NCBI RefSeq assembly: GCF_017352215.1
Contig: NZ_CP071444.1
Span: forward strand, 620,001 to 684,000
Direction: 5' to 3'
DNA from: Alkalibacter rhizosphaerae
Lineage (GTDB): Bacteria; Bacillota; Clostridia; Eubacteriales; Alkalibacteraceae
Length of the DNA: 64,000 nucleotides
Shown: piece by piece, positions 10,243 to 64,000 of the stretch
How positions within the stretch are numbered: the first letter of the stretch is position 1
How the letters are laid out: each line of letters opens with the position of its first letter
Program-made: the position numbers and the translations under genes
Notes under the pieces: generated by a model
The model's database searches: none
What the model saw: only the letters and a program-made list of their open reading frames with translations
Told to the model about the DNA's origin: nothing

Positions 10243-10256
10243 CTTGAATGGTACTA

Positions 10257-12908: not shown

Positions 12909-12915
12909 CTGTTTT

Positions 12916-14637: not shown

Positions 14638-14678
14638 ATTTATACCCCCTTGATGGTAAATTTATGGATTATAATACC

Positions 14679-14710
14679 ATACAAACGATTACATAACAAT
14701 CGTTTTGTAT
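14679..14710. promoter_or_regulatory. Inverted repeat in acsA-acuA divergent promoter region
   Basis: ATACAAACGATT and AATCGTTTTGTAT are near-perfect inverted copies (one extra base in the right arm) with a 7-base spacer. They lie in the 169-base region between the acsA and acuA starts, about 45 bases upstream of acsA. A shared operator for both directions is plausible; no regulator gene is adjacent. Confidence 0.5.
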
Positions 14711-14806
14711 GTCATATTCTTGTTTGTTTATTAACTTTCAGCATTGCAACACGTATTTATATTATAATATAATAAAATGAAATCCATTACAATAGCGGGG
14801 GATCCC

Positions 14807-15439: not shown

Positions 15440-15453
15440 TAAGGAGGCAAAAC

Positions 15454-16083
15454 ATGTTTGTAGAAAATATCATGATCAAAAAAGTAATTACCCTGCGCCC
15501 GGATTCCACCATTTCGGAAGCCATGGTGCTGATGCAAAAGAACCGCATCCGTCATCTACCCGTCGTTGACGACAATAACCAAATCCTCGGGATCATCTCG
15601 GACCGGGATGTTCGAGATGCCAGCCCTTCGGTCCTCTTGCCGGAAACGGACAACTCCTATTTGAGACTTTCCGTTTCAAAAATCATGACCCAGGACTTGA
15701 TCACCGGTAGCCCTTTGGATTTTATCGAAGATGTGGCCGCCACTTTTTACGAATATAAAATAAGCTGCCTGCCCATCACCAATCAGGACAAATTGTTGGG
15801 GATCGTCACAGAAAGCGATCTTCTCCGCAGCTTCGTGGAACTTACAGGGGCAGGTCAACCGGGCAGCCGCCTGGAGATCCAGGTGGATCATACCCCAGGA
15901 TCCTTGGGCAAGATCTCCACCATCATTTCAGCAAGAAACATCAATATTTTAAGCGTGTTCATCTATCCGGCAAAAGACGAAGACCACCGACTCCTGGTCT
16001 TCCGATTAAAAATCATGAATCCCATGGAATTGGCTCTCGATCTTCGGGAACAAGGCTTTGATGTCGTATGGCCCATCCTGTAA
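15454..16083 (+). CDS. acuB: AcuB, CBS-pair and ACT domain protein
   Basis: A 209-residue regulatory protein: two CBS repeats (about 1-130; DSTISEAMVLMQKNRIRHLPVVD and LLGIVTESDLLRSF mark them) followed by an ACT-type domain (about 140-209, VDHTPGSLGKISTIISARNINI). CBS pairs bind adenine nucleotides, so AcuB may report energy state to the AcsA acetylation switch, though its function is not established. The start at 15454 follows AAGGAGGCAAAAC; 14 bases separate it from the acuA stop. Confidence 0.92.
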   Translation: MFVENIMIKKVITLRPDSTISEAMVLMQKNRIRHLPVVDDNNQILGIISDRDVRDASPSVLLPETDNSYLRLSVSKIMTQDLITGSPLDFIEDVAATFYEYKISCLPITNQDKLLGIVTESDLLRSFVELTGAGQPGSRLEIQVDHTPGSLGKISTIISARNINILSVFIYPAKDEDHRLLVFRLKIMNPMELALDLREQGFDVVWPIL

Positions 16084-17285
16084 CTTCACATCCGATTTTT
16101 ATCTATTCACCGGTTTTTGACAATTACCGTTTTTCCCATGATCATCCTTTCGACCCCATCCGCATTCGATTGACCTACGAATTGTTGCGGGCCAGCGGCA
16201 TATTGCAGGATCATCACTTGGTGGATCCAAGGGAAGCCAGCGTTGCGGAGTTGCTGCTGGCTCATCGGGAAGATTATGTGGAGTTCGTCAAAACGAAAGG
16301 AAGCACCGGTGAAAATATCTACTGCAAGGAAGCCAATCGATTTGGTTTGTGCACGGAGGATACACCCACCTTCTTTGGTATGCATCATTCAGCAGCGACC
16401 ATAACAGGGGGTACCCTTCTCGGAGCCAAACATGTGCTGGAAGGAGTCAACAACCACGCACTGAATTTGTCCGGCGGACTGCATCACGCCACCAGCGGCA
16501 AAGCCTCCGGCTTTTGCGTGTATAATGATTTGAACGTGGCCATTGCTTACATTCGCAAGCATACGGATCTTCGCATTTTGTACATCGATACGGACGCCCA
16601 CCATGGGGACGGTGTCCAGTTTCATTTTTATGACGACCCCATGGTCTGCACCCTTTCCATTCATGAAACAGGGAGGTATCTTTTCCCCGGCACCGGTTCC
16701 GTGCGGGAACGGGGCAACGGCAAAGGATACGGGTCCAGCTTCAACATACCACTTGACGCCTACACGGAAGACGAATCCTTTCAATACGTTTTGGAAAATT
16801 CCCTTTATATCGTGGCTGAACATTTCAAACCGGATATCATCGTTTCCCAACACGGGGCCGATTGCCATTACCTGGACCACATGTCCCACATGTCTTTGAC
16901 CATGGATTCTTTTCGTTTCATCCCGAAGATCATCCATAAGATCGCCCATGAATATTGCCAGGGCCGTTGGCTGGCTACCGGTGGCGGAGGCTACAACGCT
17001 TACGATGTGGTCCCTCGCGCCTGGGCACTTGTCTGGAAAGAAATGGCCGATGTGCCATCAGGCCAGGTTCCAGATGAACTACCGGGATCCTACCTGTCCT
17101 TGGTACGCCAATGGACGGATGAACCCATTTGTCCCACATGGATGGATCACGGAAAAGACTACAACTCCATTCCTCGAAGGGAAGAAATATCCGACAAGAA
17201 CAAAAAAAGCCTGATCGATGCCATGTACGCCATCAACAGCGGACAAATCGGAAACAATTTCTTTGCCAACCGCATCGTGGAGTGA
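16068..17285 (+). CDS. acuC: AcuC, histone-deacetylase-like protein deacetylase
   Basis: A 405-residue class I-type deacetylase that removes the acetyl group from AcsA and restores activity in Bacillus. Zinc and catalytic motifs are visible: GGLHHATSGKASGFCVYND, DTDAHHGDGVQFHF, the SQHGADCH region and ATGGGGYNAYDVVPRAW. The ATG overlaps the end of acuB by 16 bases, so it depends on coupling; the ribosome site is weak. The C-terminus extends beyond the catalytic core as in Bacillus AcuC. Confidence 0.93.
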   Translation: MAHPVTSHPIFIYSPVFDNYRFSHDHPFDPIRIRLTYELLRASGILQDHHLVDPREASVAELLLAHREDYVEFVKTKGSTGENIYCKEANRFGLCTEDTPTFFGMHHSAATITGGTLLGAKHVLEGVNNHALNLSGGLHHATSGKASGFCVYNDLNVAIAYIRKHTDLRILYIDTDAHHGDGVQFHFYDDPMVCTLSIHETGRYLFPGTGSVRERGNGKGYGSSFNIPLDAYTEDESFQYVLENSLYIVAEHFKPDIIVSQHGADCHYLDHMSHMSLTMDSFRFIPKIIHKIAHEYCQGRWLATGGGGYNAYDVVPRAWALVWKEMADVPSGQVPDELPGSYLSLVRQWTDEPICPTWMDHGKDYNSIPRREEISDKNKKSLIDAMYAINSGQIGNNFFANRIVE

Positions 17286-17286
17286 T

Positions 17287-18045
17287 TTATCGACTCCACT
17301 CCTTGGCGATGATCCGCTGTCCAGTCACTCCGTCAGATTCTTTTGATGCCAAATACAGCATGACTTCATTTAAAATGTCTGCAGGCAGCAGGTTGCCTCT
17401 GGCACGAAAGGCTTCTTCCAAACCCGATGGGATCAAGCCCGTATCTGCAGCCCCTCCAGGAAGGATCACGTTGACATCCACCCCGGTTCCTTCCAGTTCC
17501 TTGGCCATGACCATGGACAAGGCTTCCCCTCCTGCTTTGGCAGGACCGTAAGGAGAAAAATATTTGTTGGTCATGGTGGACAAGCTGGTGCTGACATAGA
17601 TGATCTTTCCATACTTCTGTTCCAGCATCATGGGAACAAAGGCTTTCGCCGTCAAAAAGCACCCAAAAAAATTTGTCTCCATCATATCCCGAAATCCTTG
17701 GGAGTCCACTTCATAAAAAGGCACAGGATTCTCCAGGATGTCGTTGCTGATCCTCCCCATGCCGATACCTGCATTGTTCACCAGCACATCCAGGCTCCCC
17801 CACGCCTCTTTGACGATCTCCACGGCGTCGGCAATGGATCCTTCGTCTCGAACGTCCATGGGTACCACCAGAGGATCCAGACCGGCTCGGACAAGTTTTT
17901 GCTTTGCCGTTTCCAGCTTTTCACCCGGCCTGGAAGACAGAGCCACCTTGGCACCGTTTTCCAATAAGGCTTTTGCCATTTCATAGCCGAAGCCTGTAGA
18001 ACTTCCTGTGATCAACACTCGTACTCCTGTAACATTTGCTTGCAA
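17287..18045 (-). CDS. Short-chain dehydrogenase/reductase
   Basis: About 252 residues of classical SDR type: the NAD(P) loop ITGSSTGFGYEMAKAL, the NNAG motif in DVLVNNAGIGMG, a serine in YVSTSLSTM and the catalytic YGPAKAGGEA (YxxxK). An ATG exists at 18060 but lacks a ribosome site. GGAGG inside its first codons is spaced eight bases from an in-frame TTG at 18045, which is the likely start. It converges on acuC with one base between stops. The substrate is unknown. Confidence 0.85.
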   Translation of the reverse strand: MQANVTGVRVLITGSSTGFGYEMAKALLENGAKVALSSRPGEKLETAKQKLVRAGLDPLVVPMDVRDEGSIADAVEIVKEAWGSLDVLVNNAGIGMGRISNDILENPVPFYEVDSQGFRDMMETNFFGCFLTAKAFVPMMLEQKYGKIIYVSTSLSTMTNKYFSPYGPAKAGGEALSMVMAKELEGTGVDVNVILPGGAADTGLIPSGLEEAFRARGNLLPADILNEVMLYLASKESDGVTGQRIIAKEWSR

Positions 18046-18107
18046 TCGTAAAACCTCCATTTTTTTATTTTGGCCGGACGTTGAATCCGGCAGAAAGGAC
18101 CTTTGCC

Positions 18108-18287
18108 ATGAAATCCTGGAAAAACATCAACGTAGACGAATTGGATCGGTTGGAGATCTACGCCTTGCTCCCCAAAACCAATTGCCGTCGCTGTGGATTT
18201 GACACCTGTCTTGCCTTTGCGGCCGCTGTGGAAGAGGGAAAGCGACCCATCACCGCATGCCGGGTCTTGGATCAATCCTCCCGATAA
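18108..18287 (+). CDS. Stand-alone 59-residue Fe-S domain protein
   Basis: The small protein consists almost entirely of one cysteine motif, TNCRRCGFDTCLAFAAAVEEG then ITAC (C-x2-C-x4-C-x16-C). This is the [4Fe-4S] domain (PF04060 type) normally fused to the corrinoid Fe-S protein large subunit of CODH/ACS or to RnfB. Here it stands alone behind a short helix (NVDELDRLEIYALL). The ATG has AAAGGAC nine bases upstream. Its 3' end overlaps the 3' end of the opposite-strand gene by 16 bases. An electron carrier or a donor cluster for a corrinoid reactivation system is possible, but not shown. Confidence 0.7.
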   Translation: MKSWKNINVDELDRLEIYALLPKTNCRRCGFDTCLAFAAAVEEGKRPITACRVLDQSSR

Positions 18288-18715
18288 CGACCGGCGTCAT
18301 TGGCTCGGTCAAATTCTAGAAACATTGGATACACCTTCAGCGCATCGTAATCCTCCCAGGCTTCCTTAGTCTGGACACTTCCGGTGAATTCCAGATACTG
18401 CTTCAAGACCGGCTCCACCTCATCCCTTCCCACTCCCAATTCAAACAAAATCACCAGGGCCCGGTTCATTTCCCGAAGGGATTTAGCAATGTGACGGTTG
18501 TAAGCACCCGTATCCCGCAAGCTTTCCCGCTGCATTTTTGCAAAACGGATCTTTTCCGCCAAGTCGAAGTAACATCGATTTTTCAATCCCTCTTCATATG
18601 AAGTGCCTTTTAGTACTCCAGCCTGATCTTCCAAACCATTTCTTTCCATAAACTCCTTGATTTCATCCAGTCCCAGCTCCTTGCCGGTTTCTACATATAC
18701 CCTCAATTCATCCAT
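18272..18715 (-). CDS. Unrecognised helical protein, 147 residues
   Basis: No family recognised. The protein is rich in charged and leucine residues, without membrane spans or cysteine clusters, and looks helical (YVETGKELGLDEIKEFMERNGLEDQ, AKSLREMNRALVILFELG, EVEPVLKQYLEF). The ATG at 18715 has AAGGAGGAAGTC directly upstream; the frame continues further upstream but that part overlaps the flavoenzyme gene and has no ribosome site. It ends tail-to-tail inside the small Fe-S gene. A soluble regulatory or structural role is all that can be said. Confidence 0.6.
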   Translation of the reverse strand: MDELRVYVETGKELGLDEIKEFMERNGLEDQAGVLKGTSYEEGLKNRCYFDLAEKIRFAKMQRESLRDTGAYNRHIAKSLREMNRALVILFELGVGRDEVEPVLKQYLEFTGSVQTKEAWEDYDALKVYPMFLEFDRANDAGRYRED

Positions 18716-18838
18716 GACTTCCTCCTTACTTGCCTTCAATAGAGAATTCATACCCAAAAAAGCTGGAATCATTGACGAAACTTGATAGAACTGATAATAT
18801 TTTATCAAGTTAAATTTGCAAACATAAGGAGGCATTCC

Positions 18839-20761
18839 ATGAACCCCAAATATCAAAAAGTATTTACTCCCATCCGAATCGGCAACATGCTGGTAAAAAA
18901 CCGCATCGAAGTTTCGCCTGCTGCCCCCCGTCTGGCATCCCCAGAAGGGTTGGTGACTCCCGAACTTATCGAATGGACGAGGACCTTGGCCAAAGGAGGT
19001 GCCGGGATCGTCACTGTTGGCATTTCCCAAGTCACCCCTTTGCAAGCACCCCGGGAGCACATGAGCGGTTTTTGCGTCAACATGGGAAGCAACTTGGTCA
19101 TTCCCGGACTTCGCGCCCTGGCGGATGCGGTCCATCGCCACGGGGCGAAAGCATCCATCGAATTGGCGGGATTTGCAGGCCATACCATGCCCAAAGAGGG
19201 GGAATCTCCCATCGATGCCATGAGCGTGGAAGACATCCAACACTGGATCCGTTTATTTGCCGACGCTGCAGAAAGGGCCTTGAAAGCAGACATGGACATG
19301 ATCCTTCTTCATGGAGGTCACGGGATCCTCATCAGCAACTTCTTTTCTCCCCTGTTCAATCATCGAACCGACAAGTACGGAGGAAACATTGAAAATCGGG
19401 CCCGTTTTGCCTGCGAACTGCTCGAAGCCATTCGGGAGAGAGTGGGCAACAAGTTGGCCATCGAGTTTCGCTTGAGTGCCGACGAACTGGTTCCCGGAGG
19501 CGCAAAACTGGAAGAGACCATCGAATTCATCAAGATCATCCAGGACAAGATCGATCTGGTCCACGTTAGTGCAGGATTGCTGTTGGATGACGCCATGGTC
19601 CCCATCACCACCCAACCCACCTATTTAAAAAGAGGATACAATGCTCACTTTGCCGCCAGCATCAAAAGAGCTCCAGGGATCAAGGTTCCTGTCACCACGG
19701 TTGGTTCCATCGACTTGGACCTGGCTGCAGAGATCATTGAAAACGAAGATGCCGACATGTGTGCCATGATCCGTACCCTCATCGCCGATCCAGACAGTGT
19801 AAATAAAGCCAGGACCGGGAGAGAAGCTGAGATCCGGCCCTGCATCCGCTGTGTCTTGTGCTTGAACCGGACCCATGGCATGGAACCCTTGCTGGTGGCT
19901 TGTGCCGTCAATCCAAGAGCCGGCCGGGAAGTGGAACTCTCCTGTTCCCATTTTCCGGCAACAACACCGAAAAAAGTAGTGGTCATCGGTGGTGGTCCCG
20001 CTGGAATGGAAGCCGCCTGTGATGCTGCCGACAAGGGGCATCAGGTGGTCCTCTTCGAAGAAAAGGACATACTGGGGGGTACCCTCCGACTGGCAGTCGT
20101 TCCGGATTTCAAAGACGATCTGAAACGATATCTCCAATGGGCCATACGCCGCACCACCAATCATCCTGGTGTGGATCTTCGATTGGCCACCAAGGCAACG
20201 AGAGAAACGGTCGCCGCTGAAGACCCGGATGCCGTTATCGTTGCCGTAGGCGCCGTAGCCAACATGCCCCCAATTCCTGGTTTGGATGGCCGAAATGTGG
20301 CCTGGGTGGGCGATGTAGAATCCGGCGTCAAAGATACCGGTGAAAATGTCGTCATTGCCGGAGGTGGACTGACCGGTTGTGAAACGGCGTTGAATCTAGC
20401 AAGAAAAGGCAAGAATGTGACCATCGTAGAAATGGTGGACCGGGAAGCCATGCTTCAAGTCTCCCCCATCCCAATGACAGCACTTCTCCAGCTCTTGGAC
20501 AAGGAAGGCGTCGCCATTTTGGACAACCACCGATTGATCCGTGTGGAAGAAAACAGCCTGATCGCCGAAGGACCAAAGGGAGAAATGGAGCGGTCATTTG
20601 ATACCCTGGTCGTGTCTCTGGGAGTCAAGCCCAATACGCAAGAAGCATCCCTGTTCAGCGATCTTTGTGATGATGTCTTTTACATCGGAGATTGCACCTC
20701 CAACCGGGGCACCCTCTACACTGCAACCACAGGCGGTTACAACGCGGCCTTGGATCTGTAA
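18839..20761 (+). CDS. NADH:flavin oxidoreductase, 2,4-dienoyl-CoA reductase-like
   Basis: A 640-residue flavoenzyme with an N-terminal FMN-binding old-yellow-enzyme barrel (about 1-330), a cysteine cluster for [4Fe-4S] (CIRCVLC, then a cysteine 14 residues on), and a C-terminal FAD/NAD domain (VVIGGGPAGMEAACDAADKG and IAGGGLTGCETALNLARKGK). The layout is that of FadH and trimethylamine dehydrogenase relatives. SNFFSPLFNHRTDKYGG is the typical barrel signature. The ATG follows AAGGAGGCATTCC. Candidate reactions are reduction of an enoate or enoyl-CoA, or amine demethylation; nothing in the sequence decides. Confidence 0.88.
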   Translation: MNPKYQKVFTPIRIGNMLVKNRIEVSPAAPRLASPEGLVTPELIEWTRTLAKGGAGIVTVGISQVTPLQAPREHMSGFCVNMGSNLVIPGLRALADAVHRHGAKASIELAGFAGHTMPKEGESPIDAMSVEDIQHWIRLFADAAERALKADMDMILLHGGHGILISNFFSPLFNHRTDKYGGNIENRARFACELLEAIRERVGNKLAIEFRLSADELVPGGAKLEETIEFIKIIQDKIDLVHVSAGLLLDDAMVPITTQPTYLKRGYNAHFAASIKRAPGIKVPVTTVGSIDLDLAAEIIENEDADMCAMIRTLIADPDSVNKARTGREAEIRPCIRCVLCLNRTHGMEPLLVACAVNPRAGREVELSCSHFPATTPKKVVVIGGGPAGMEAACDAADKGHQVVLFEEKDILGGTLRLAVVPDFKDDLKRYLQWAIRRTTNHPGVDLRLATKATRETVAAEDPDAVIVAVGAVANMPPIPGLDGRNVAWVGDVESGVKDTGENVVIAGGGLTGCETALNLARKGKNVTIVEMVDREAMLQVSPIPMTALLQLLDKEGVAILDNHRLIRVEENSLIAEGPKGEMERSFDTLVVSLGVKPNTQEASLFSDLCDDVFYIGDCTSNRGTLYTATTGGYNAALDL

Positions 20762-20857: not shown

Positions 20858-23266
20858 TTACATGTTTTGTTCGCTTCGTTTGATCAGGTCGTCTTGAAGA
20901 TCCTTGTACAACTCTACAAAGTAGGCGCTGAATCCGGCGATCCGGATCACCAGATCCCGATACTTTTCCGGTTCATCCTGGGCAGCACGAAGGGTATCTG
21001 CACCAACCACATTGTACTGGATATGCATTCCGTCGTTGTCAAAGAAGGTTTCCACCAACTGGCGCAACTTCATGGTACCCTCTTCTCCATGGACTGCCTT
21101 GGGATGAAACTTCATGTTGAGAAGGGTCCCGTTGGCGTTGTTTACATGGTTGATCCTGGCCACGCTGTTCAAGACGGCGGAAGGACCGTTTTTATCCATT
21201 CCCTGCATGGGGGAGATGCCGTCGCTCAAAGGTTCTCCCTTTCGTCGTCCATCTGGAGTGGCGAACGTTCCTTTACCGAACGCGATGTGTACGGATACGG
21301 GATACAACCCGGCCCGGTATGTCCCTCTTGGTCCGGTGCTTTCGTTGACCCGGTCGGAGAAGACATCCATGGCCCAGCTGGTCAATTCATCCACGCTTTC
21401 CTCATCGTTGCCGTATCGGGGAACCATGTTGAATACGTCCTGTTGCATGTTTTCATATCCTGCCCAATCCGCCATGAGGGCGTCGTAAAATTCTTTTGCC
21501 GTATATTTCTTCGTATCATAAATCAAGTGCTTCAATGCGCTCAAACTGTCTCCCACATTGGCGCATCCGATCCCGGCGATCCCGGAGGAATTGTATTTGC
21601 TACCACCCCAGACCACATCAGCGCCGTTTTCCATACATCCGTCCATAGTGGCGGATGCAATGGGGATGGGCATGATCTCGGAGACCACCATCTCGTAAAA
21701 GTTGGTCAGTGTCACATGCCAGTCCACAAAGTACTGGATCTGTTTTTTATAGGCTTCTTTTACATCTTCAAAGGTCTTGAACTCATGAAGATATCCTGTG
21801 GGAAGTCCCACTTGCTTGCCGCTGAAGGGATTGATCCCGTTGTTGATGGCAAGGACCAGGGCATTGGCCATATTCCAGAAGGTTTCCCTTCCAGTCCCCC
21901 CGCAGGCCGGATATTCGTTGCCGCTTCCTGCCGGCTCCACACAACCGATGATGCAGTAATCTCTGGCATCTTCCAGGGTGAATCCTTTTGCCAGGAGGGA
22001 CGGAATGATCACTTTGTCGTTTTGCAGGGTTGGGATCCCTCCCACACGTTTTGTGGTCTCAATGGCCATTTCCCACAGTTCGTTGGGGGTATCGTCGTGG
22101 ACACGGACGGACAAGGGGGGTTCATGGATATAGAGTCTGGCCGCTACCTGAAGCATTAAATAGGATACCGGATTGGTAGCGTCTTCTCCCGATCGGGTCA
22201 CCCCTCCCAGGGACATGTGCTGACCGGAGGAATACCCGCCGGCATTCAACGCACCGCCAACGCTTTTTAGTTTGTTGGTGTCGGAAATTTTCAGGAACAT
22301 GCAATCCAGCACTTCCTGGGCCTCATCCAGGGTCGTTCTACCGGCTTTCAAATCGGCCTCCAAATATGGCCAGGTATATTGGTCAAACCTTCCGATGGTC
22401 AAACCATGCATGTTGCCGTCCAGGGACAGGAGGAGTTGGTACAAATAGGTTGCTTGGACCGATTCTGCAAAAGTCCGACATGGATTTTCCATGATCCAGT
22501 CCAAAGAATCCGCCATTTTCAACAACTCTTCTTTTCGCTTCGGTTCTGCCGATTCGGCTTTTTCACGACAAAGAGCGGCATATCGCTTGGACAGCAGAAT
22601 GGCTGCATCGCAGACGATGACGATGGATCGATAGAAGGTATATTTTTTGGCATCGTTGCCAAAAACCTTTCCTTCCATTTGGTCCATTTTATCCTTTGCT
22701 TCCTGCCGGATGGATCCGAATCCCCGACTGCATACTTTGCCGTAATTGGCATTGAAATGTCCGGTGGGACCGTCGGAGTTGTCTTTCCCCGCTCCCAAAA
22801 ATGTGGTGACCCCGTTGCCGGCCACACTGGCATATCCCTCCGGTATGACTTTGTTCATTCGCGCTCCTACGGAATGGGTCCTCCAAAAATCCTCGATGCT
22901 TAAAAATACTTCCTTGTCTTCTTCAGAGAGCTTGAAACCTTCTTCGATCTCGTTGCGATTTTCAAACACTCCACTTCGGAGTTCCTCGAAAAACCAGGTG
23001 ACGCCAAATTCGGGAAACATGGTGGCTCCCCGATAATTCTTCGCCATGTTTCCGACGATCAGTTCATCGTCTTCCACCCGGACAGTCATCTTGCTGCATA
23101 CCTCATACAAGGTTTTAGCCCGTTTGACGATGCCCATCTCATCTTCATTCTCCCTGTAAAAATCCGTGACGATCTTGGCCCGTTCACTGTCCAGTACGGG
23201 ATAGGTGGTGCGGTACCGTTCCTTCAATCGTTCCACTCTGCTGCTGACCGGTCTAAATTCTACCAT
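20858..23266 (-). CDS. Glycyl radical enzyme of the dehydratase/lyase class (substrate unknown)
   Basis: The 802-residue protein has the pyruvate-formate-lyase fold. The active-site loop is DYCIIGCVEPAGSG, with the thiyl cysteine at 442 and the adjacent acid at 444 (C-x-E). The radical glycine is at 778 in VIRIAGFSAYFVEL. The GCVEP loop matches diol dehydratases and choline lyase rather than PFL (CC) or 4-hydroxyphenylacetate decarboxylase (GCLE). The loop after it (GNEYPACGGTG) differs from those reference enzymes. The activase gene lies 37 bases upstream. No shell protein, small decarboxylase subunit or product-processing dehydrogenase is adjacent, so the substrate stays open. Confidence 0.9.
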   Translation of the reverse strand: MVEFRPVSSRVERLKERYRTTYPVLDSERAKIVTDFYRENEDEMGIVKRAKTLYEVCSKMTVRVEDDELIVGNMAKNYRGATMFPEFGVTWFFEELRSGVFENRNEIEEGFKLSEEDKEVFLSIEDFWRTHSVGARMNKVIPEGYASVAGNGVTTFLGAGKDNSDGPTGHFNANYGKVCSRGFGSIRQEAKDKMDQMEGKVFGNDAKKYTFYRSIVIVCDAAILLSKRYAALCREKAESAEPKRKEELLKMADSLDWIMENPCRTFAESVQATYLYQLLLSLDGNMHGLTIGRFDQYTWPYLEADLKAGRTTLDEAQEVLDCMFLKISDTNKLKSVGGALNAGGYSSGQHMSLGGVTRSGEDATNPVSYLMLQVAARLYIHEPPLSVRVHDDTPNELWEMAIETTKRVGGIPTLQNDKVIIPSLLAKGFTLEDARDYCIIGCVEPAGSGNEYPACGGTGRETFWNMANALVLAINNGINPFSGKQVGLPTGYLHEFKTFEDVKEAYKKQIQYFVDWHVTLTNFYEMVVSEIMPIPIASATMDGCMENGADVVWGGSKYNSSGIAGIGCANVGDSLSALKHLIYDTKKYTAKEFYDALMADWAGYENMQQDVFNMVPRYGNDEESVDELTSWAMDVFSDRVNESTGPRGTYRAGLYPVSVHIAFGKGTFATPDGRRKGEPLSDGISPMQGMDKNGPSAVLNSVARINHVNNANGTLLNMKFHPKAVHGEEGTMKLRQLVETFFDNDGMHIQYNVVGADTLRAAQDEPEKYRDLVIRIAGFSAYFVELYKDLQDDLIKRSEQNM

Positions 23267-23303: not shown

Positions 23304-24251
23304 TCAATGGATCTTCACTTTTAATCCAAAGCCTTCCAGAAATGCCTTGATCTCTTCCATCCGTTCTTCCGATGGCGGTTCCAGATCTTCCAGTAGATAC
23401 GGTTTGGCAAGACGTTCGTATTTGATGGTCCCCAACTTATGATAGGGCAGTATTTGGACCATGGATACGGCGTCTCCAAGCTGCTGGCAAAAAAGTCCTG
23501 TTTTCTCCAAATTCTCCATGGAATCGTTATGTCCTGGGATGATGGGTACCCGAATCTGGATGTCCACTCCAGACTGGGCCATTTTGACGGCATTTTCCAG
23601 GATGATCTCGTTGGGCACTCCCACCAGTTCTTTTGATGACTCTGAATCCATGTGTTTTAGATCCAGAAGGACCAGGTCCACGTATGGGATCATTTTCTCC
23701 AAAGTATCCCATTTTGCAAACCCCGTCGTATCCAGACAAGTATGAAGTCCCTCATCCTTGCATGCTTTCAACAGTTCCAGTGTGAATTTGGGCTGGCTCA
23801 ACGCCTCCCCGCCGGAGATAGTGACGCCCCCGCTGCTTTTTTTATAATAAGCGCTGTCCTTTCTAATAATCACCATGGTTTCTTCCACGGTCTTGTCCTC
23901 CCCGATGACCACCAAGGCCTTGGACCGACATGCCTCCACACAGTCAAAACAGGAATGGCATTTATCAAAATCCACCTTGATCTTCGTAATGTCTTTTTTG
24001 TAGACTTCCGAATAAACAACTTCTCCTTCTGAAATGGCTTTATGGGTGCAGGCTTCCAGGCACTTTCCGCAATTTTCGATACCGATGCAACGCATCATGT
24101 ACAAGCCCAGCTGGCTTTCATATGCCTGAGATTCAGGGCTGTGGCACCATAAACAGGTCAATGGACAGCCTTTTAGAAAAACTTCCGTCCGAATACCCGG
24201 CCCGTCGTTGACGGTAAATCGTTGAATGTCATAGATTTTTCCTGTCGTCAT
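23304..24251 (-). CDS. Glycyl radical enzyme activating enzyme (radical SAM)
   Basis: A 315-residue radical SAM protein. The SAM cluster is C-x3-C-x2-C in KGCPLTCLWCHSPES (cysteines 29, 33, 36). An insertion with two further clusters follows (CIGIENCGKCLEAC and CHSCFDCVEAC), as in activases of dehydratase and decarboxylase type rather than PflA. GGEALSQP and DTTGFAKWD are the expected core motifs. It would abstract hydrogen from glycine 778 of the downstream enzyme. It has its own promoter and is separated by a terminator from the cooT pair upstream. Being the only activase in the window, it might also serve the second glycyl radical enzyme. Confidence 0.93.
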   Translation of the reverse strand: MTTGKIYDIQRFTVNDGPGIRTEVFLKGCPLTCLWCHSPESQAYESQLGLYMMRCIGIENCGKCLEACTHKAISEGEVVYSEVYKKDITKIKVDFDKCHSCFDCVEACRSKALVVIGEDKTVEETMVIIRKDSAYYKKSSGGVTISGGEALSQPKFTLELLKACKDEGLHTCLDTTGFAKWDTLEKMIPYVDLVLLDLKHMDSESSKELVGVPNEIILENAVKMAQSGVDIQIRVPIIPGHNDSMENLEKTGLFCQQLGDAVSMVQILPYHKLGTIKYERLAKPYLLEDLEPPSEERMEEIKAFLEGFGLKVKIH

Positions 24252-56401: not shown

Positions 56402-56432
56402 AAAAATCAGGACTCCGAAGAGTCCTGATTTC
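56402..56432 (-). terminator. Terminator after second glycyl radical enzyme
   Basis: AAATCAGGACTC and GAGTCCTGATTT pair perfectly around CGAA, with eight T on the minus strand. Confidence 0.9.
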
Positions 56433-56441
56433 TAGTTAAGA

Positions 56442-58892
56442 TCAAATACTATGTTCCGCACGGGAGATGATGTCTTCCTGCATTGCAGGAGTCATGTCAA
56501 CAAAATATGCGCTGAACCCAGCGATACGAACAACCAGGTTGTGATATTCCTCGGGCTTGGCCTGTGCTTTTCTCAGTGTGGCGGAATCTACGATGTTGTA
56601 CTGCACTTCCATGCCACCCATGTCAAAATATGCCTTGGTAGCATCTTCCAGCTTAGTAATGCCGTCGTTGCCTCGCAGGGCCGTCGGGTGGATCCTTAAA
56701 TTGAGGGCCATCCCGTCCATGAAGCGAGAATGATCAAAGCTGGTGGACGATACAAATACAGACGTTGGTCCGTTGACATCTCTGCCTTGCGCGGGACTGG
56801 AAGCATCTGCAATAGGAGTACCCGCCTTCCTTCCATCCGGTGTTGCCCAGGTGATCTCACCCTGCACCACATGGTCTGAAGCGCCAAAGGTACCGCACTT
56901 GTACACATCACAACGGTGAGTGGAGAAATCTCTGGAAATATTATAATACAGATCCACAACATACTTCATTTCTGCGTCGGCATAAGGATCTGCGTTGCCG
57001 TAATGCGGGACTTCATTCAGGATCTTTTGACGCAACATTTCATAACCCTCCCAGTCGGCAAGGATCGCATCCAGATACTCTTTCCCAGAGACCAGCTTCT
57101 TGTCAAAGATCATGTACTTCAGTGCTGTCAAGCTGTCGGCCGTCGTAGCAAGTCCGGTTGCCGTGCCGCCGTATGAATTATACTTTGCCCCGCCTTCCGA
57201 TACATCCTTGCCGCTTTCCATGCATCCCGTGGTGGAAATGGAGAGGTTGGGAAATGGGAATATTCGGGGATATTCATGCTCCGTGTAGTTGTTGAGTGTT
57301 GCTGACCATGTAAGCATCCAAGTCGTGATCTTTTCAAAAGCAGCACGGACTTCATCCATGGATCTCATATCCGTCAAATACCCGGAACGCAATTTCTCCG
57401 GGACCTGGGCTCCGTTCATGGGGTTGATGCCGTTGTTGAGGGCCATGTTCAATGCTATGGCCCAGTATATGCCGCTGTGGGACATGGACGATCCATTGGG
57501 CGCCGGATAGTCACATCCGGATCCGGTGATCTCCTGGCAACCGATAAATGCGAAGTTTCTGGCATCCTCCAACGTAAAACCAAGTTCCCGTATGATCGCG
57601 GGTACGATCACTTCGTCATTCTGAAGAAGGGGCAAACCGCCTACACGCATAGAAGTCGCCATGGCACAATCCCAAATTTCCTTTGGTGTATTCTTGTTTG
57701 TACGCAGCGATACGGTGGGCTCATGCAGCTCCAAACGGGACATGGCTTCCAGTACCATGTAGGAAACGGGATTTGTTGCATCTTCACCGGTCTCAGGGAC
57801 GAGGCCGCCGATGGTGGTATGCTGGCCAAGGTGACCGATACCTGCGGTCTGCTGCATCTTGCCGAAGCCGCCGCCATATAGTGTGTTGATTTTAAGGAAG
57901 AAAGCATCCACAAGTTCCTGTGCTTCGTCCATGGTGATCCTGCCTGCTTCCAAGTCTGCCTGGAGATAGGGCCATGTATAATAATCGAATCTGCCGATGC
58001 TTGTAACTCCGGGATCGTTGTCGACCTTGAGGAACAAATTGTACATCATGACCTGCTGGCAAGCTTCCCAGAAGGTGCGTGCCGGTTTCTCGGCGATCCA
58101 GTCAAGGCCTTCCGCCATCTTTTCAAACTCTGCTTTTTTCTCGGCGGTCAATGCTGTCTTTGCCTTTTCTCTTGCGCAATCCGCATAACGACGGGTCATG
58201 GTGATCGCTCCGTCACAGGCAACCGTAGCAGCCTTGTAGAAGATGTACTTGCCCATGTTGTCGCCCTGTACATTGCCTTCATGATCATCCAGCCAATTCT
58301 GGGCTTGCTTGCGTATATCTGCATAACCGCGTTTGAGGATATTCTGGAAACCTGGCGTCAAATGCCCCGGAGGCAACATCGTCGGGAAACCTCCAACTTT
58401 TCCATAGTCCGAAGCTTGCAGATTGAAAAAGTCCATGGCTCCATCCGGCAGCCATTCTTCCGGCATGACGTTTCCGTATGCAGCCATTTGCTGTTTGAAA
58501 ATATCACGCAGCTCTTTCAGGTCTGCCGGGGAGATCGCCAGCTTCTGGTGGGAATATAGGGGATCGTCGTCGGGCGCATGGTGCAGACCATCCTCCCCAA
58601 TGGGCCAGGTGTTCTCAATATCCGCCATGAGCCAATAGGTGCCGTTGGCAGCGCCCCAGCTCTTGTTTCCAAGGTCACCTGCAAAGTACTCGTCTTCCCT
58701 GATTTCGATGGGCATGTTGGAAATGACGTGATGGGACACATAAGGCTTCTCAAGCATTGGTGGATAATTTCGATATTTTTGCGATGCTTCCAGCTTTAAA
58801 CGAGCCTTTTCTGCATCTGCAATAATGGTTCTGTCGCGAACCTTGTCCCGCATTCTTTCAATGCGTTCTGTAACCGGTTTGAACGTATACAT
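56442..58892 (-). CDS. Second glycyl radical enzyme, unusual GCQE active site, no adjacent activase
   Basis: The 816-residue protein has the PFL-like fold with the thiyl cysteine at 452 in FAFIGCQEITGSGCDYP (C-x-E, E454) and the radical glycine at 792 in VVRIAGFSAYFVDM. GCQE is unlike the GCVEP loop of the first enzyme and unlike PFL, choline lyase (GCVEPQ) or 4-hydroxyphenylacetate decarboxylase (GCLE). The N-terminal loop PPGHLTPGFQNIL replaces GHFNANYGKV. The ATG follows AAGGAGGTCAATC. It is monocistronic with a strong terminator. No activase is within the flanking genes; the one at 23.3-24.3 kb may serve it. Substrate unknown. Confidence 0.88.
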   Translation of the reverse strand: MYTFKPVTERIERMRDKVRDRTIIADAEKARLKLEASQKYRNYPPMLEKPYVSHHVISNMPIEIREDEYFAGDLGNKSWGAANGTYWLMADIENTWPIGEDGLHHAPDDDPLYSHQKLAISPADLKELRDIFKQQMAAYGNVMPEEWLPDGAMDFFNLQASDYGKVGGFPTMLPPGHLTPGFQNILKRGYADIRKQAQNWLDDHEGNVQGDNMGKYIFYKAATVACDGAITMTRRYADCAREKAKTALTAEKKAEFEKMAEGLDWIAEKPARTFWEACQQVMMYNLFLKVDNDPGVTSIGRFDYYTWPYLQADLEAGRITMDEAQELVDAFFLKINTLYGGGFGKMQQTAGIGHLGQHTTIGGLVPETGEDATNPVSYMVLEAMSRLELHEPTVSLRTNKNTPKEIWDCAMATSMRVGGLPLLQNDEVIVPAIIRELGFTLEDARNFAFIGCQEITGSGCDYPAPNGSSMSHSGIYWAIALNMALNNGINPMNGAQVPEKLRSGYLTDMRSMDEVRAAFEKITTWMLTWSATLNNYTEHEYPRIFPFPNLSISTTGCMESGKDVSEGGAKYNSYGGTATGLATTADSLTALKYMIFDKKLVSGKEYLDAILADWEGYEMLRQKILNEVPHYGNADPYADAEMKYVVDLYYNISRDFSTHRCDVYKCGTFGASDHVVQGEITWATPDGRKAGTPIADASSPAQGRDVNGPTSVFVSSTSFDHSRFMDGMALNLRIHPTALRGNDGITKLEDATKAYFDMGGMEVQYNIVDSATLRKAQAKPEEYHNLVVRIAGFSAYFVDMTPAMQEDIISRAEHSI

Positions 58893-59213
58893 GATTGACC
58901 TCCTTAGTATGAAAATCTACTGATAGCATGTTTTTTAATACATTCAGTATATCATACGGAGAGAAACATGCATCTACGGTTTCCCCGGATTCATCATGCG
59001 ATTTATTCATGCATTCATGCAATAAATACAGTCTACATACTAATATTTTAAAAATATACTCTATCAGTGCTTGAAAAGTATTTCATTCCTCTACTATATA
59101 TTCCAAATGTACGCCATTGAACAGACTTTATCTGCTGTTGTGTTTTTTATTGCTAATAATGGGTATACTTTTATAATTCATATTGAGATTAAAATGTTAA
59201 AGGAGATAAGGAA
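58893..59213. other. AT-rich intergenic region
   Basis: 321 bases, clearly more AT-rich than the flanks. It contains TTTATTCATG and CATGCAATAAA (around 59000-59025) as an imperfect inverted repeat and the rhodanese promoter at the right end. No reading frame with a ribosome site was seen. Confidence 0.5.
59150..59177 (+). promoter_or_regulatory. Promoter for rhodanese lipoprotein gene
   Basis: TTGCTA and TATAAT with a 16-base spacer, ending 36 bases before the ATG. Confidence 0.6.
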
Positions 59214-59612
59214 ATGAAAAAAAATTTATTTTTAGGTTTATTAATCGCCATTTTGGTTGCGGTTGTTGTCTCAGGATGTTCTTCTGAGTCTAAACCAATG
59301 TATGTAGATATTTCAGCAAAAGATGCTAAAGAATTGCTTGATAATAATCCTGACGTCGTAGTCATTGATGTATCACCCAATTATGATCAAGGTCACATTC
59401 CTGGAGCAATAAACTATTACTTGGGCGATGGTTCATTAGATGAAGCAATTTCTACGCTTGATAAAAGCAAAACCTACCTGATCTACTGCCATGTAGACAG
59501 TGTGGCAATTGCTGGCGCTGAAAAGCTAATAGAAGCCGGCTTTGAAAAAGTATACAGACTGGAAGGAAATTATTCTGCTTGGGTCGAGGAAGGATATCCA
59601 GTAGAAAAGTAG
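59214..59612 (+). CDS. Rhodanese-domain lipoprotein
   Basis: 132 residues: a signal peptide ending in VVVSGC (lipid anchor at cysteine 22) followed by a single rhodanese domain (about 30-130). VIDVSPNYDQGHIPGAINY is the usual first half; the active cysteine is at 92 in YLIYCHVDSVAIAG. It probably handles sulfane sulfur outside the membrane. Its codons favour A and T far more than neighbouring genes, and an integrase fragment follows within 17 bases, both signs of horizontal arrival. ATG follows AAAGGAGATAAGGAA. Confidence 0.85.
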   Translation: MKKNLFLGLLIAILVAVVVSGCSSESKPMYVDISAKDAKELLDNNPDVVVIDVSPNYDQGHIPGAINYYLGDGSLDEAISTLDKSKTYLIYCHVDSVAIAGAEKLIEAGFEKVYRLEGNYSAWVEEGYPVEK

Positions 59613-59628
59613 TTATTACACAATTTAA

Positions 59629-59739
59629 GATATCGCGCAGATGCTCGGCCACTCGTCTTTGCAGACGACAAGGGAAGTATATCTCCACTATGGAGCTGAA
59701 GATTTACGCAAACTGGTTAATGACATGTATAGAGGCTGA
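59629..59739 (+). pseudogene. 3' remnant of a tyrosine recombinase (phage/element integrase)
   Basis: From 59629 the plus strand reads 36 codons ending in TGA: the pattern DIAQMLGHSSLQTTREVY then HYGAEDLRKLV. LGHSSxxTTxxxY is the C-terminal catalytic box of tyrosine recombinases, with the box histidine and the nucleophile-region tyrosine. The codon just before (59626-59628) is TAA, and nothing upstream continues the protein, so only the end survives. It lies about 90 bases from the 3' end of tRNA-Arg, the usual target of such integrases. Confidence 0.8.
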
Positions 59740-59753
59740 AAAGCCTTTTTTAC
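59733..59753 (+). terminator. Terminator after integrase remnant
   Basis: AGGCT and AGCCT pair around GAAA, followed by TTTTTTAC and more T; it overlaps the last codons of the integrase fragment. Confidence 0.6.
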
Positions 59754-59793
59754 TTTTTTTCTTACTTGGGTGTTATAAAGGTGTTATTTTGTA

Positions 59794-59816
59794 AATAAAA
59801 AAAGCGCCGAAGCGCT
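59794..59816 (-). terminator. Terminator of tRNA transcript
   Basis: AGCGC and GCGCT pair around a CGAA loop; on the minus strand TTTTTTTATTT follows, 14 bases beyond the tRNA-Arg 3' end. Confidence 0.8.
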
Positions 59817-59829
59817 GAAACTGTTGGTA

Positions 59830-59905
59830 TGGCGTGCCCGGAGGGACTCGAACCCCCGACGAACAGATTCGAAGTCTGCCACTCTATCCACTGAGCTACG
59901 GGCAC
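59830..59905 (-). tRNA. tRNA-Arg (UCG)
   Basis: A 76-nt cloverleaf on the minus strand: acceptor GTGCCCG/CGGGCAC, D-arm AGCTCAGTGGATAGAGT, anticodon loop CTTCGAA (anticodon UCG, reads CGA), T-arm GGGGGTTCGAGTCCCTC, and an encoded CCA end. Its 3' end faces the integrase remnant. Confidence 0.95.
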
Positions 59906-59953
59906 AACACATGCATTTAAAAAAATGAACCGATGGCTCATTTTCAAACAAAA

Positions 59954-60028
59954 TGGAGCGAAAGACGGGATTTGAACCCGCGACCCTCGCCTTGGCAAGG
60001 CGATGCTCTACCACTGAGCCACTTTCGC
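59954..60028 (-). tRNA. tRNA-Gly (GCC)
   Basis: A 75-nt cloverleaf on the minus strand: acceptor GCGAAAG/CTTTCGC, anticodon loop TTGCCAA (anticodon GCC), T-arm with GGTTCAAATCC, discriminator T and encoded CCA. It is 48 bases upstream of tRNA-Arg and probably co-transcribed. Confidence 0.95.
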
Positions 60029-60197
60029 ATATCAATGTTCTCAATCGAACTTGCTTTTATATTATACTCAGTATCCAACAATTAATCAAGAGTGTTTTTT
60101 GCTTTTTTCCAACAAATACCTTCATTGAGAGACAACATGTGTTTATATTCCGCCATGGTGGATACAAAGTATGATAGAAACCAAAGGAGGTAGCAGC

Positions 60198-60731
60198 ATG
60201 AATTTTTTACATTTGGCAAAGAAACGATATTCCTGCAGACTCTACAAAGATCTGCCGGTGGAAAAAGAGAAGTTGGAGTATGTGTTGGAAGCCGGTCGGG
60301 TCGCTCCCACGGCAAAAAATCTGCAACCCCATCGTGTTTTGGTCCTGCAAAAGAAAGAAAATCTGGAGAAATTGTCGGAAGCGGCACGGATCTACGACGC
60401 TCCTGTGGCCTTGGTGGTGTGTAAAGACAAAAACGATTCCTGGGTCCGTCCCCTGGATGGAAAGGAACACGGAGACGTGGACGCTTCCATCGTCACGGAT
60501 CACATGATGCTTGCCGCCACAGAACAGGGATTGCAATCGGTTTGGATCTGTTTCTTTGATGCCGTCCGGTTGAAGGAAAATTTTTCCTTGCCGGAAAATT
60601 TGGAACCGGTGAATATCCTGGTAATGGGCTATGGTGCCGACGAACCCAAATCAGAGCTGCGACACAAGGAAATGCGCCGGCCCTTGGAAGAGACCTTTTA
60701 CTTTGAATCTTTTGGGGAGGTGAAATCATGA
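60198..60731 (+). CDS. Nitroreductase-family flavoprotein
   Basis: 177 residues with the short nitroreductase fold: FLHLAKKRYSCRLYKDLPVEKE, EAGRVAPTAKNLQPHRVLVLQ and DASIVTDHMMLAATEQGLQSVWICFFD. It would reduce nitro compounds, quinones or similar with NAD(P)H through FMN. The ATG at 60198 follows AAAGGAGGTAGCAGC. It overlaps the next gene by four bases. Confidence 0.9.
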   Translation: MNFLHLAKKRYSCRLYKDLPVEKEKLEYVLEAGRVAPTAKNLQPHRVLVLQKKENLEKLSEAARIYDAPVALVVCKDKNDSWVRPLDGKEHGDVDASIVTDHMMLAATEQGLQSVWICFFDAVRLKENFSLPENLEPVNILVMGYGADEPKSELRHKEMRRPLEETFYFESFGEVKS

Positions 60732-61228
60732 CAAGCTTGTTTCAAGACGACCTGAACACAGCCATGGAATCCATGGCCAAAGGCGGCGCCTTTTTAACGG
60801 TTTCCGATGGAGAACGGACCAACACCATGACCATCGGCTGGGGCTATGTGGGGCATCAGTGGCAGATGCCGGTTTTTGTGGCATTGGTACGCAAATCCCG
60901 CTATACCTATGAGATCCTGGAAAAAGGAACGGAATTCACGGTCAGCATCCCCGTACTGGGTACCATGAAAAAAGCCTTGGGGATCTGCGGAACAACATCC
61001 GGTCGGGACGGCAACAAGTTTGAAAAGGCGGAGTTGACCCTTTCACCCGGTAAAACCGTAGGTGTTCCGGTCATCGCCGGTTGCGGCAACTATATGGAAT
61101 GCCGAATCGTTTACCGACAGGATATGGTCCCTTCCCAACTGGATCCTGCGCTGCGGGAAGTCCATTATGAGAAAAAGAACAACGACTACCACACCCTCTA
61201 CTTTGGGGAGATCCTGCAAAGCTACTAA
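60728..61228 (+). CDS. Flavin reductase-like FMN-binding split-barrel protein
   Basis: 166 residues. KGGAFLTVSDGERTNTMTIGWGYVGHQWQMPVFVALVRKSRYTYEIL shows the FMN-binding split barrel of the flavin reductase-like family (PF01613). The following TVSIPVLGTMKKALGICGTTSGRDGNKFEKAEL fits. It may supply reduced flavin to, or work with, the nitroreductase with which it is translationally coupled. Confidence 0.88.
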   Translation: MTSLFQDDLNTAMESMAKGGAFLTVSDGERTNTMTIGWGYVGHQWQMPVFVALVRKSRYTYEILEKGTEFTVSIPVLGTMKKALGICGTTSGRDGNKFEKAELTLSPGKTVGVPVIAGCGNYMECRIVYRQDMVPSQLDPALREVHYEKKNNDYHTLYFGEILQSY

Positions 61229-61235
61229 AAAATAA

Positions 61236-61262
61236 CGGCCGGAATATTTCCGGCCGCTTCTT
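61236..61262. terminator. Terminator between flavin reductase and MoaD genes
   Basis: CGGCCGGAA and TTCCGGCCG pair perfectly around TAT, followed by CTTCTTTT. Confidence 0.8.
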
Positions 61263-61269
61263 TTATAGT

Positions 61270-61518
61270 TCATCCTCCACCCAGTATGCGCATCAACAAA
61301 ACTCTTTCATTGTCTTTAAGGATGCTTTTATAATCCGCTTTTTTCCCGTCGATCATAAAACTGGTGGTTTGAAAGTGTTTCGGAGTCAGATGAGGGTGTT
61401 GTTTCATTAGTTGATCCACAAGATCTCGTATGGTATCTCCTTCTTCCAGGTCCAATTCAAAAGGTTCCTTGTCCAATCCTTCCAAAGGTATGCCCAAATG
61501 TTTGACGACGACTCTCAT
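61270..61518 (-). CDS. MoaD/ThiS-like protein
   Basis: An 82-residue ubiquitin-like protein ending in MRILGGG, the Gly-Gly tail that becomes a thiocarboxylate in MoaD. VVVKHLGIPLEG and LDLEEGDTIRDLVDQLMKQHP fit the fold. It lies 29 bases after the aldehyde oxidoreductase gene and is the probable sulfur donor for its tungstopterin. ATG follows GGAGGGAGACC. Confidence 0.88.
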   Translation of the reverse strand: MRVVVKHLGIPLEGLDKEPFELDLEEGDTIRDLVDQLMKQHPHLTPKHFQTTSFMIDGKKADYKSILKDNERVLLMRILGGG

Positions 61519-61547
61519 GGTCTCCCTCCTCTCGTAACTCCTGTCTG

Positions 61548-63404
61548 TTACTTATAAAGATCTTCGGCAACAAAATCCAGACCGAGTTGTTCCAATACTT
61601 CCTTGCTCGGTTTTCCAGTTTCCTTGTCCCATCCTACGTGTTCAAAGAAGTTTTCACCCAGACGCTCGTTGTCTACAGTGACCCCTTCCAGAGGACCGGC
61701 CGTCAATGGAGGTTTACCAACAGATCTGCTGGGGATGGACATGTCTTTTCGAAGGATCCCTTCCCGAATGTTGAAAGCTTGTCGAAGGTTCAAAATTCGA
61801 AGCCCTGTCTCATCGGCGATCTCCGGACCAAACGGTTTTCCGAAGATGGCTTCCAGATACTCATTCTGGGTCGCCGGATCTCCCGCCACGCTCATGAAGA
61901 GACAGAATCCCCCACTATTGGTGATCTCTGTACTGGACGTCATCCGGGTATCCAAGAATCCTGTATCGCTGTAGTCGTATTTGTCTCCAATGGGTGCGTT
62001 GTTCATCTGTGCCAGACCAAGTCCCCCTTTTACGTGACGACCAGGTGTTGGATCATACTGGTATGTTCTTGCAAACCCAGGAGCCAGTCGGGGATCATGC
62101 ATGGGCAACTCGATGCCGGAAGCCGTCTGCAGGTATTCTTCCCCTTTGCCGAAATGCTTGGCTGCAAATGCGGAACCGTTGAGCAGGACCGCTCCCACGC
62201 CTTCGCCGTCGGCCATCTTCTGGGTCAATGCGACGATGGCTTCACCATTTCCCCAAGTCAGATCGATGCCGTCCAGTTCTTCCTTGCTTAAAATACCATT
62301 GTTGTAGCATTCCATGGCCCAAGCCACTGTCATGCCGGCGGAAATGGTGTCCATTCCATAGCGATTGCAGATCTCATTGCATTTGAAAATGACATCCATT
62401 TCGTCACAGAGAAGCGTGGATCCAAAAGCTGCCGCTGTTTCATATTCCGGTCGTTCCGTTGGTCCAAGCGGCCAGCGCCCGTCGTTTACTTCATATTCTG
62501 CCCCGCATCCCAAGGGACAAGTGGAGCATGCGTATTTCTTGGTCTTATATTTTGCATCAAAAGTAGTCGCTGCCACCTTTTCCGCACTTTCTTCACCAAA
62601 GTCCACAATACCGACGCCACCCCAGTTTTTAACAGGGGAGTCCCCGTTCAGCGCGGATGCACCAGTTCCAACACCGGTTCCATACGTTCCAAAACCCTGG
62701 GCTCCCGGGTTACCTTTCATGCCTTCCGCAAACCTTTTATTGATCGCCGTGATCTTTTCAGGGTCCGCAACGGGAACATTTCCCGTACCGCGTACGGCAA
62801 TAGCTTTCAGTTTCTTGGAACCCATGACTGCACCGGTGCCACCGCGGCCTGGAGCTCGATGGCCGTCATTGATGGGACAGGAGATCAGTCCCACTTTTTC
62901 ACCGGAAGGTCCGATGGCGCTGATCCGAAGTCGCGGTTCTCCCGTTTCTTCCTTCAGGAGCTCCCAGGTTTCCTTGGCATCCTTGCCCCATAAATGAGCC
63001 GCATCCCGAAGTTCCGCTTTACCGTCATTGATATACAAATAAACGGGTTTTTCAGAAATACCGCTGAAGAATACGCCGTCATATCCCGCTTTTTTCAATT
63101 CCGGGCCAAAATATCCACCGGAGTTTGCATCGTTCCAACCCCCGGTAACAGGTGATTTGTGCACCACCGTATATCTTCCGCCAAAGAAGGCCTTGGTGCC
63201 GTTGGATGGTCCGGTCATAAATCCAAGCATGCTCTCCGGTCCCAAGGGATCCGTTCCTGCCGGCATCCTTTCGTACAAGATCTTGGCACCGATTCCGTAA
63301 CCGCCTACGTACTTGTATGCCAAGTCTTCTGAAACTGATTCTTCCGTCATGGTGCCTTTTGTCAAGTCTACAAAAAGCAATTTCCCTGCATAACCGCCTA
63401 TCAT
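61548..63404 (-). CDS. aor: Aldehyde:ferredoxin oxidoreductase (tungsten type)
   Basis: The 618-residue enzyme oxidises aldehydes to acids with ferredoxin, or runs in reverse. The N-terminal domain shows YAGKLLFVDLTKGTMTEESV and YGIGAKILYERMPAGTDPLG. The Fe-S ligands are CSTCPLGC, with a fourth cysteine in SGGFCLF, and the pterin region has RAPGRGGTGAVMGSKKLKAIAV. The start at 63404 follows GAGGAGGAAATTGT; the frame continues upstream but without a ribosome site. The MoaD-like gene follows in the same operon. Aryl aldehydes from aromatic amino acids are plausible substrates here. Confidence 0.94.
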   Translation of the reverse strand: MIGGYAGKLLFVDLTKGTMTEESVSEDLAYKYVGGYGIGAKILYERMPAGTDPLGPESMLGFMTGPSNGTKAFFGGRYTVVHKSPVTGGWNDANSGGYFGPELKKAGYDGVFFSGISEKPVYLYINDGKAELRDAAHLWGKDAKETWELLKEETGEPRLRISAIGPSGEKVGLISCPINDGHRAPGRGGTGAVMGSKKLKAIAVRGTGNVPVADPEKITAINKRFAEGMKGNPGAQGFGTYGTGVGTGASALNGDSPVKNWGGVGIVDFGEESAEKVAATTFDAKYKTKKYACSTCPLGCGAEYEVNDGRWPLGPTERPEYETAAAFGSTLLCDEMDVIFKCNEICNRYGMDTISAGMTVAWAMECYNNGILSKEELDGIDLTWGNGEAIVALTQKMADGEGVGAVLLNGSAFAAKHFGKGEEYLQTASGIELPMHDPRLAPGFARTYQYDPTPGRHVKGGLGLAQMNNAPIGDKYDYSDTGFLDTRMTSSTEITNSGGFCLFMSVAGDPATQNEYLEAIFGKPFGPEIADETGLRILNLRQAFNIREGILRKDMSIPSRSVGKPPLTAGPLEGVTVDNERLGENFFEHVGWDKETGKPSKEVLEQLGLDFVAEDLYK

Positions 63405-63529
63405 ACAATTTCCTCCTCTTGATATGAACTTGCTACAATTTGTACTTATGGTTCTCCTTTTCATTTTAAACTCATTCGGTAAGGATGTAAAGGATAACAA
63501 CCGCTTTTTTTAAGAAAGTAAAATTGTGA

Positions 63530-64000
63530 TTACAGCTTGTTGATGATGCTGGCATTGTACGCCGCGCCAAATCCGTTGTCGATATTGACCACGCTGACGC
63601 CGCTGGCGCAGCTGTTTAGCATGGCCAATAGAGCTGCCAGTCCGCCGAAATTGGCACCGTAGCCCACGCTGGTGGGTACGGCTATGACCGGTTTGTCCAC
63701 CATGCCGCCGATGACACTGGCCAATGCCCCTTCCATGCCTGCAATGACCACCACCACCTTGGCACCGCGGATCCGGTCCATTTTTGACATCAGGCGATGG
63801 AGCCCGGCCACTCCCACATCGGTGATTTTTTCCACCTGATTTCCCAAGATCAAGGCTGTTTCATAGGCCTCCTCCACCACCGGAAGATCGGAAGTTCCCG
63901 CTGCTACGATGGCAATGTAGCTTTCCGTCGTTTCCGGTTCATGATTTATTATGGTGATGGTCCTTCCCAGTTCATTGTAATGAGCATGATTGCACACTTC
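63530..64000 (-). CDS. larB: LarB, nickel-pincer cofactor carboxylase (5' end outside window)
   Basis: The C-terminal 157 residues of a PurE-like protein: [79 protein letters not shown]. LarB makes the dicarboxy-mercapto precursor of the nickel-pincer cofactor of lactate racemase and related enzymes. The frame is open at the window edge; a GTG at 63997 is not a real start because full LarB is about 250 residues. The partners larC and larE are not visible. Confidence 0.9.

Follow-up and report, generated by a model that had tools for sequence, protein, structure and literature searches.

The question raised by this locus is which reaction is catalyzed by a glycyl radical enzyme (GRE) whose gene stands by itself, and how such an enzyme would receive its radical when no activase is encoded beside it. 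The gene belongs to Alkalibacter rhizosphaerae and lies in a stretch of 64,000 nucleotides (contig NZ_CP071444.1, positions 620,001 to 684,000), the whole of which is referred to here as the window. GREs perform difficult anaerobic reactions in guts and sediments; according to a recent review (PMC11574389), many of the abundant ones have no known function, and a missing assignment would thus not in itself be surprising. What makes this enzyme worth studying is the combination of a GCQE signature in its active-site loop, the loss of diol-binding residues, a link to O-demethylases, and an activase that it probably shares. The reading we favor, with a probability of about 0.6, is that it is a lone-gene, eliminase-type (dehydratase or lyase) GRE of a GCQE clade, activated in trans, and eliminating as proposed below.

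Membership of the GRE superfamily follows from the C-terminal glycyl motif with G792, the thiyl C452 in the barrel, the fold, and the Pfam domains, i.e., PFL-like (E = 2.1e-131) and Gly_radical (E = 1.7e-26). The features of the locus, whose reading frame opens with ATG, are collected in Table 1. An earlier note, made from the letters of the window, had named C452, E454, and G792 as the radical elements, and all three are found where it put them and are invariant in an alignment of 47 sequences; the strong terminator that it described, placed 3' of the stop codon, is borne out by the folding energy and the closing U run. The gene 105 bp downstream is nitroreductase-like and the upstream one is rhodanese-like and divergent, and neither is kept beside the orthologues at the loci compared. 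From this layout, the gene is predicted to form a single-gene transcription unit, and sequence and model together show an intact, oxygen-sensitive GRE with the full radical set. The upstream region (59214-63997) encodes a rhodanese-like lipoprotein, a nitroreductase, a flavin-reductase-like protein, an aldehyde ferredoxin oxidoreductase, and an AIR-carboxylase-like protein.

Table 1. Position of the target GRE, its signals, and the related genes in the window
Feature	Position	Strand	Basis
Target GRE, clade A (GCQE), 816 aa	56442..58892	(-)	ORF, Pfam PF02901 + PF01228, AlphaFold2 model, fold match
Ribosome binding site AAGGAGG, 6 bases 5' of the target ATG	58899..58905	(-)	sequence
Intrinsic terminator of the target: 14-pair stem, UUCG loop, U run	56402..56433	(-)	-20.1 kcal/mol, z -5.7
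Active-site loop GCQEITGSGCDYPAPNG, codons 451-467, with thiyl Cys452, Gln453, Glu454	57492..57542	(-)	GCQE in all clade A/B members compared
Codon of Gly792, glycyl radical site (VVRIAGFSAYFV)	56517..56519	(-)	aligned with glycerol dehydratase G763; invariant
Clade C (GCVEP) GRE, first in the window; shares 39-40% identity with the target	20858..23266	(-)	sister clade in tree
Radical SAM GRE activase (TIGR02494) adjoining the first GRE; proposed trans-activator of the target	23304..24251	(-)	333.9 bits vs cut-off 174

The loop had been reported as matching no characterized group, and the comparison with curated models agrees. The target stays below the cut-off of every NCBIfam model for characterized GREs, with 300-407 bits against 1000-1150 for HypD, HpfG/HpsG, CutC, PflD, and the arylacetate decarboxylases. 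The nearest of these equivalogs, the trans-4-hydroxyproline dehydratase HypD (NF043068), is still missed, with 406.9 bits against 1100, followed by the sulfopropanediol dehydratases HpfG/HpsG (NF048009/NF048011; 399.9 and 390.4 against 1000), the choline TMA-lyase CutC (TIGR04394; 374.6 against 1050), and the arylacetate decarboxylases (NF033718/NF033715; 333.2 and 302.8 against 1100 and 1150). Pyruvate formate-lyase (TIGR01255) is further off, with 109 bits against 994, and its cysteine pair C418/C419 is missing from the target, which has C452-Q453 instead; even the broad model for the PFL2-3 subfamily is not reached (449 against 678 bits). The closest solved structures are only about 30% identical. 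HypD, CutC, and HpfG, eliminase GREs with a Cys-Val-Glu motif and a comparable fold, each form their own supported clade, and the scores of the target for them (375-407 bits) contrast with cut-offs of 1000-1100.

The tree, built with glycerol dehydratase, propanediol dehydratase (9rco), HypD, CutC, and HpfG as references, is midpoint-rooted without an outgroup and serves here for its split alone, which places the target within a GCQE clade composed of two groups, A and B (support 1.0), sister to group C (GCVEP) of the first GRE of the window, with no reference inside the A+B+C superclade (support 0.998). The target is therein also outside the clade of the characterized glycerol and 1,2-propanediol dehydratases, so that clustering with a characterized group appears neither in the NCBIfam scores nor in the tree. 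The target is not unique: clade A comprises it and its orthologues, at about 38 loci, with 64-92% identity to it and GCQE retained, and clade B, at 48-54% identity and likewise of unassigned function, includes enzymes of the acetogens Sporomusa acidovorans (L071), Acetobacterium tundrae (L074), and G008, a further gene of A. rhizosphaerae itself (at 1009.5 kb), and others. All the clade A and B members compared have Gln453, whereas every reference GRE compared has Val there. Clade B shares the GCQE motif and differs in its pocket residues, mostly P/A at 295-296, and, unlike the target, often adjoins an activase, a UroD-type methyltransferase, or an Fe-ADH. Clade A is rare: within its class, it occurs in 3 of 293 genomes, all three from the order of A. 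rhizosphaerae, and a species-level contig collection adds Oscillospiraceae and Lachnospiraceae MAGs, many from the ruminant gut. Hosts of the GCQE subgroup are rumen, termite, and digester bacteria along with acetogens available in culture, among them Alkalibaculum sporogenes, whose orthologue is 90% identical to the target, and Acetobacterium, with clade B; its presence in these acetogens makes the GCQE reaction testable in named strains. Judged by these comparisons, the GCQE clade is a coherent and strictly conserved GRE subgroup, apparently undescribed.

The earlier note had also counted two unassigned GRE reactions in the window. Both enzymes indeed lack an assignment, with the qualification that they belong to sister clades and that their reactions may thus be related. 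They resemble each other in the glycyl domain and in the type of activase, and clade C is co-operonic with A at one locus (L067) and with B at two (L067 and L074). Around the catalytic Glu, however, clade C and the first GRE have V and P for the Q and I of the target, and they retain an equivalent of His281 of glycerol dehydratase.

The AlphaFold2 model of the target is confident (mean pLDDT 87.7, pTM 0.89). Its best fold match is the B12-independent glycerol dehydratase 1r8w (Z 42.3, 2.4 Å over 770 residues), and its closest folds are the glycerol and 1,2-propanediol dehydratases, a result that confirms the superfamily and assigns no substrate. With 1r8w and the 1,2-propanediol dehydratases 5i2a and 9rco, the target shares the GRE fold, the Cys-X-Glu motif, the equivalents of His164 and Arg782, and the glycyl loop; it differs in its overall identity of about 30%, in the replacement of V434 by Q, and in its place in the tree. 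The catalytic set of glycerol dehydratase, C433, E435, H164, G763, and R782, is retained as C452, E454, H177, G792, and R811, all of them invariant across clades A and B. In established GRE chemistry, Cys-X-Glu together with a His is an indication of an eliminase, and this signature suggests that type for the target. The diol-binding H281, S282, and Y339 are replaced by G295, V296, and G356, a change conserved in clade A, and chemistry other than diol dehydration is therefore possible. Since these side chains are lost while the eliminase core is kept, the enzyme is probably an eliminase acting on a substrate other than, and larger than, that of glycerol dehydratase. The counterpart of the D447-bearing loop is longer in the target, and its alignment is uncertain.

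The alternative that survives best is a diol dehydratase of shifted specificity, acting on a sugar, a cyclitol, or a short polyol (O-methyl-inositols, 1,2-diols) and feeding sugar metabolism. It would account for the nearest folds. Some relatives (L051, L055, and the clade B gene of A. rhizosphaerae itself, L117) also have suitable genes in their vicinity, namely ribose-type ABC transporters and glycerol-dehydrogenase-like genes, and in L067 the clade A GRE is followed by three MGH1-like glycosidases. The replacement of the polar diol-binding residues speaks against it, and the association with ribose-type transporters had to be rejected, there being no enrichment near GREs (p 0.65); we thus regard it as a possibility to be kept in mind, on the unlikely side. 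An aromatic-acid decarboxylase or another non-eliminase, like the arylacetate decarboxylases, would suit the pocket, inferred to be larger and less polar, and the flavin-dependent ene-reductase-like genes among the neighbors of relatives. It is improbable, however, given that the scores for the indoleacetate and hydroxyphenylacetate decarboxylase models fall below those for the dehydratases and far under the cut-off, and that the fold matches reach Z 36-38 compared with 42 for the dehydratases.

As to activation of the eliminase-type enzyme that we favor, the absence of a neighboring activase is real: the target is a true orphan GRE, separated by 32 kb from the nearest activase, which accompanies the first GRE of the window. 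The genome encodes two GRE activases above the cut-off, that at 23.3-24.3 kb of the window and another at 1,712.8 kb; neither adjoins the target, nor does either fit as a partner just beyond its listed neighbors. Against these two stand four superclade GRE genes, i.e., the two in the window, the clade B gene (1009.5 kb), and a clade-C-like gene that appears frameshifted (1709-1711.5 kb).

The suggestion that one activase could serve both enzymes gains support from comparison with other genomes. The complete genome G012 has an orthologue 89% identical to the target and four activases, each adjoining a different GRE and none of them the orthologue's own. G002 combines one clade B and one clade C GRE with a single activase, G008 and G035 have clade B without its own activase (those present adjoin clade C or other GREs), and in L067 the operon order UroD, B, C, activase, A gives three GREs per activase. 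A few orthologues (L055, L061, L067) are counter-examples with their own adjacent activase. The activase at 23.3-24.3 kb shares 47-55% identity with those that accompany A, B, and C GREs at other loci; measured against both activases of the genome, the latter reach 47-68%, whereas the activases of HypD, CutC, and HpfG do not exceed about 45%. The activases adjoining A, B, and C GREs form one group. Over the last 60 residues, which make up the glycyl domain, the target and the first enzyme are 53% identical, compared with 40% overall. Activation in trans by a shared activase is thus probable; comparison supports it well, and better than any other element of the proposed function, and for sister GREs it is open to direct test.

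The lack of an adjacent activase, and the presence of a frameshifted GRE and a GRE fragment in the same genome, might suggest that the target is an inactive paralogue, or one in decay, that lacks an activator. This is very improbable, because the target is full-length with all radical residues intact, has a good ribosome binding site and a terminator, and is 80-92% identical to orthologues in different lineages, which implies strong constraint. Of those two other genes, the clade-C-like GRE at 1709118-1711546(-) (L118:7106-9546) is split into two overlapping frames of 512 and 368 aa beside an intact, divergent activase, which reflects a frameshift in the gene or an error in the assembly. The other, a 125-aa ORF at about 1012959-1013336(-) (L117:12959-13336), resembles the N-terminal part of the clade B GRE of this genome (59% over 79 aa) and is likely a GRE remnant adjoining that intact gene.

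For the eliminase-type GRE, the following course is proposed. A radical SAM activase encoded elsewhere, most likely that at 23.3-24.3 kb, would install the radical on Gly792, from which a thiyl radical would form on Cys452 and abstract a hydrogen atom from a substrate carbon that carries a hydroxyl group. Glu454 would accept the hydroxyl proton while His177 assists the departure of the neighboring group, either water or another alkoxy or aryloxy group, to leave an aldehyde or a ketone.

Clues to the substrate come from the relatives; clade A has no conserved operon partner across 38 loci. Genes for UroD-superfamily methyltransferases, which include O-demethylases and the chloromethane enzyme CdmB (PMC13222342), recur around the A/B/C superclade: they immediately precede the clade B gene in G008, G035, and G002, follow clade A genes in L069 and L070, and adjoin clade C genes in L088 and L097. 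Those near A and C GREs are co-directional in 11 of 11 cases (about 0.0005 by a simple sign test), and genomes carrying A or B are richer in UroD genes (p = 0.0002, and 0.002 within two families, with kinship handled to family level only). Old-yellow-enzyme-type reductases, SDRs, and flavin reductases recur near superclade GREs as well. For clade A alone, proximity to UroD genes (p = 0.24), the old-yellow-enzyme family (p = 0.07), or SDRs (p = 0.03 uncorrected) is not significant after correction, and no UroD gene adjoins the target. With low confidence, the neighborhood points to catabolism of plant-derived methoxylated or hydroxylated compounds. We tentatively propose, and hold as doubtful, a plant-derived substrate, often methoxylated, polyhydroxylated or phenylpropanoid-like, that is handled together with UroD-type O-demethylases and whose carbonyl product passes to general oxidoreductases and not to an operon partner.

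In G035, an operon (L120:3382-13416) comprises a sugar-type MFS transporter, a 3-hydroxyacyl-CoA dehydrogenase, a CoA-transferase, an SDR, a UroD-type methyltransferase, the clade B GRE, and a thiolase, and it may represent a catabolic pathway. A phloroglucinol or ring-cleavage role drawn from it was dropped, because no paper was found that places a GRE in such a role and the 387-aa gene of the operon is UroD/CdmB-like; a literature search for GREs with O-demethylases, phenoxyethanol cleavage, or hydroxyproline betaine returned nothing on the GCQE group. A long shot is that the clade performs a GRE elimination new to the field, for example one that frees a phenol from aryl-glycerol ethers (units of lignin or lignans). 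If true, the aldehyde product would enter a CoA-dependent side-chain pathway, which would fit the G035 operon and the many O-demethylase-like genes in these genomes.

The genome of A. rhizosphaerae has an extensive set of UroD-superfamily genes, at least 31-37 of them in 2.45 Mb, putatively encoding O-demethylase-type methyltransferases. The L067 operon (2873-19008) comprises, in one direction, the UroD-type methyltransferase, the B, C, and A GREs, the activase, and the three MGH1-like glycosidases; a peptide-type ABC transporter flanks it. Clade A GREs occur in tandem or in multiple copies in single ruminant-gut MAGs, with up to about five per genome (L070:7325-12454, L079:10001-17673, and L058 to L060).
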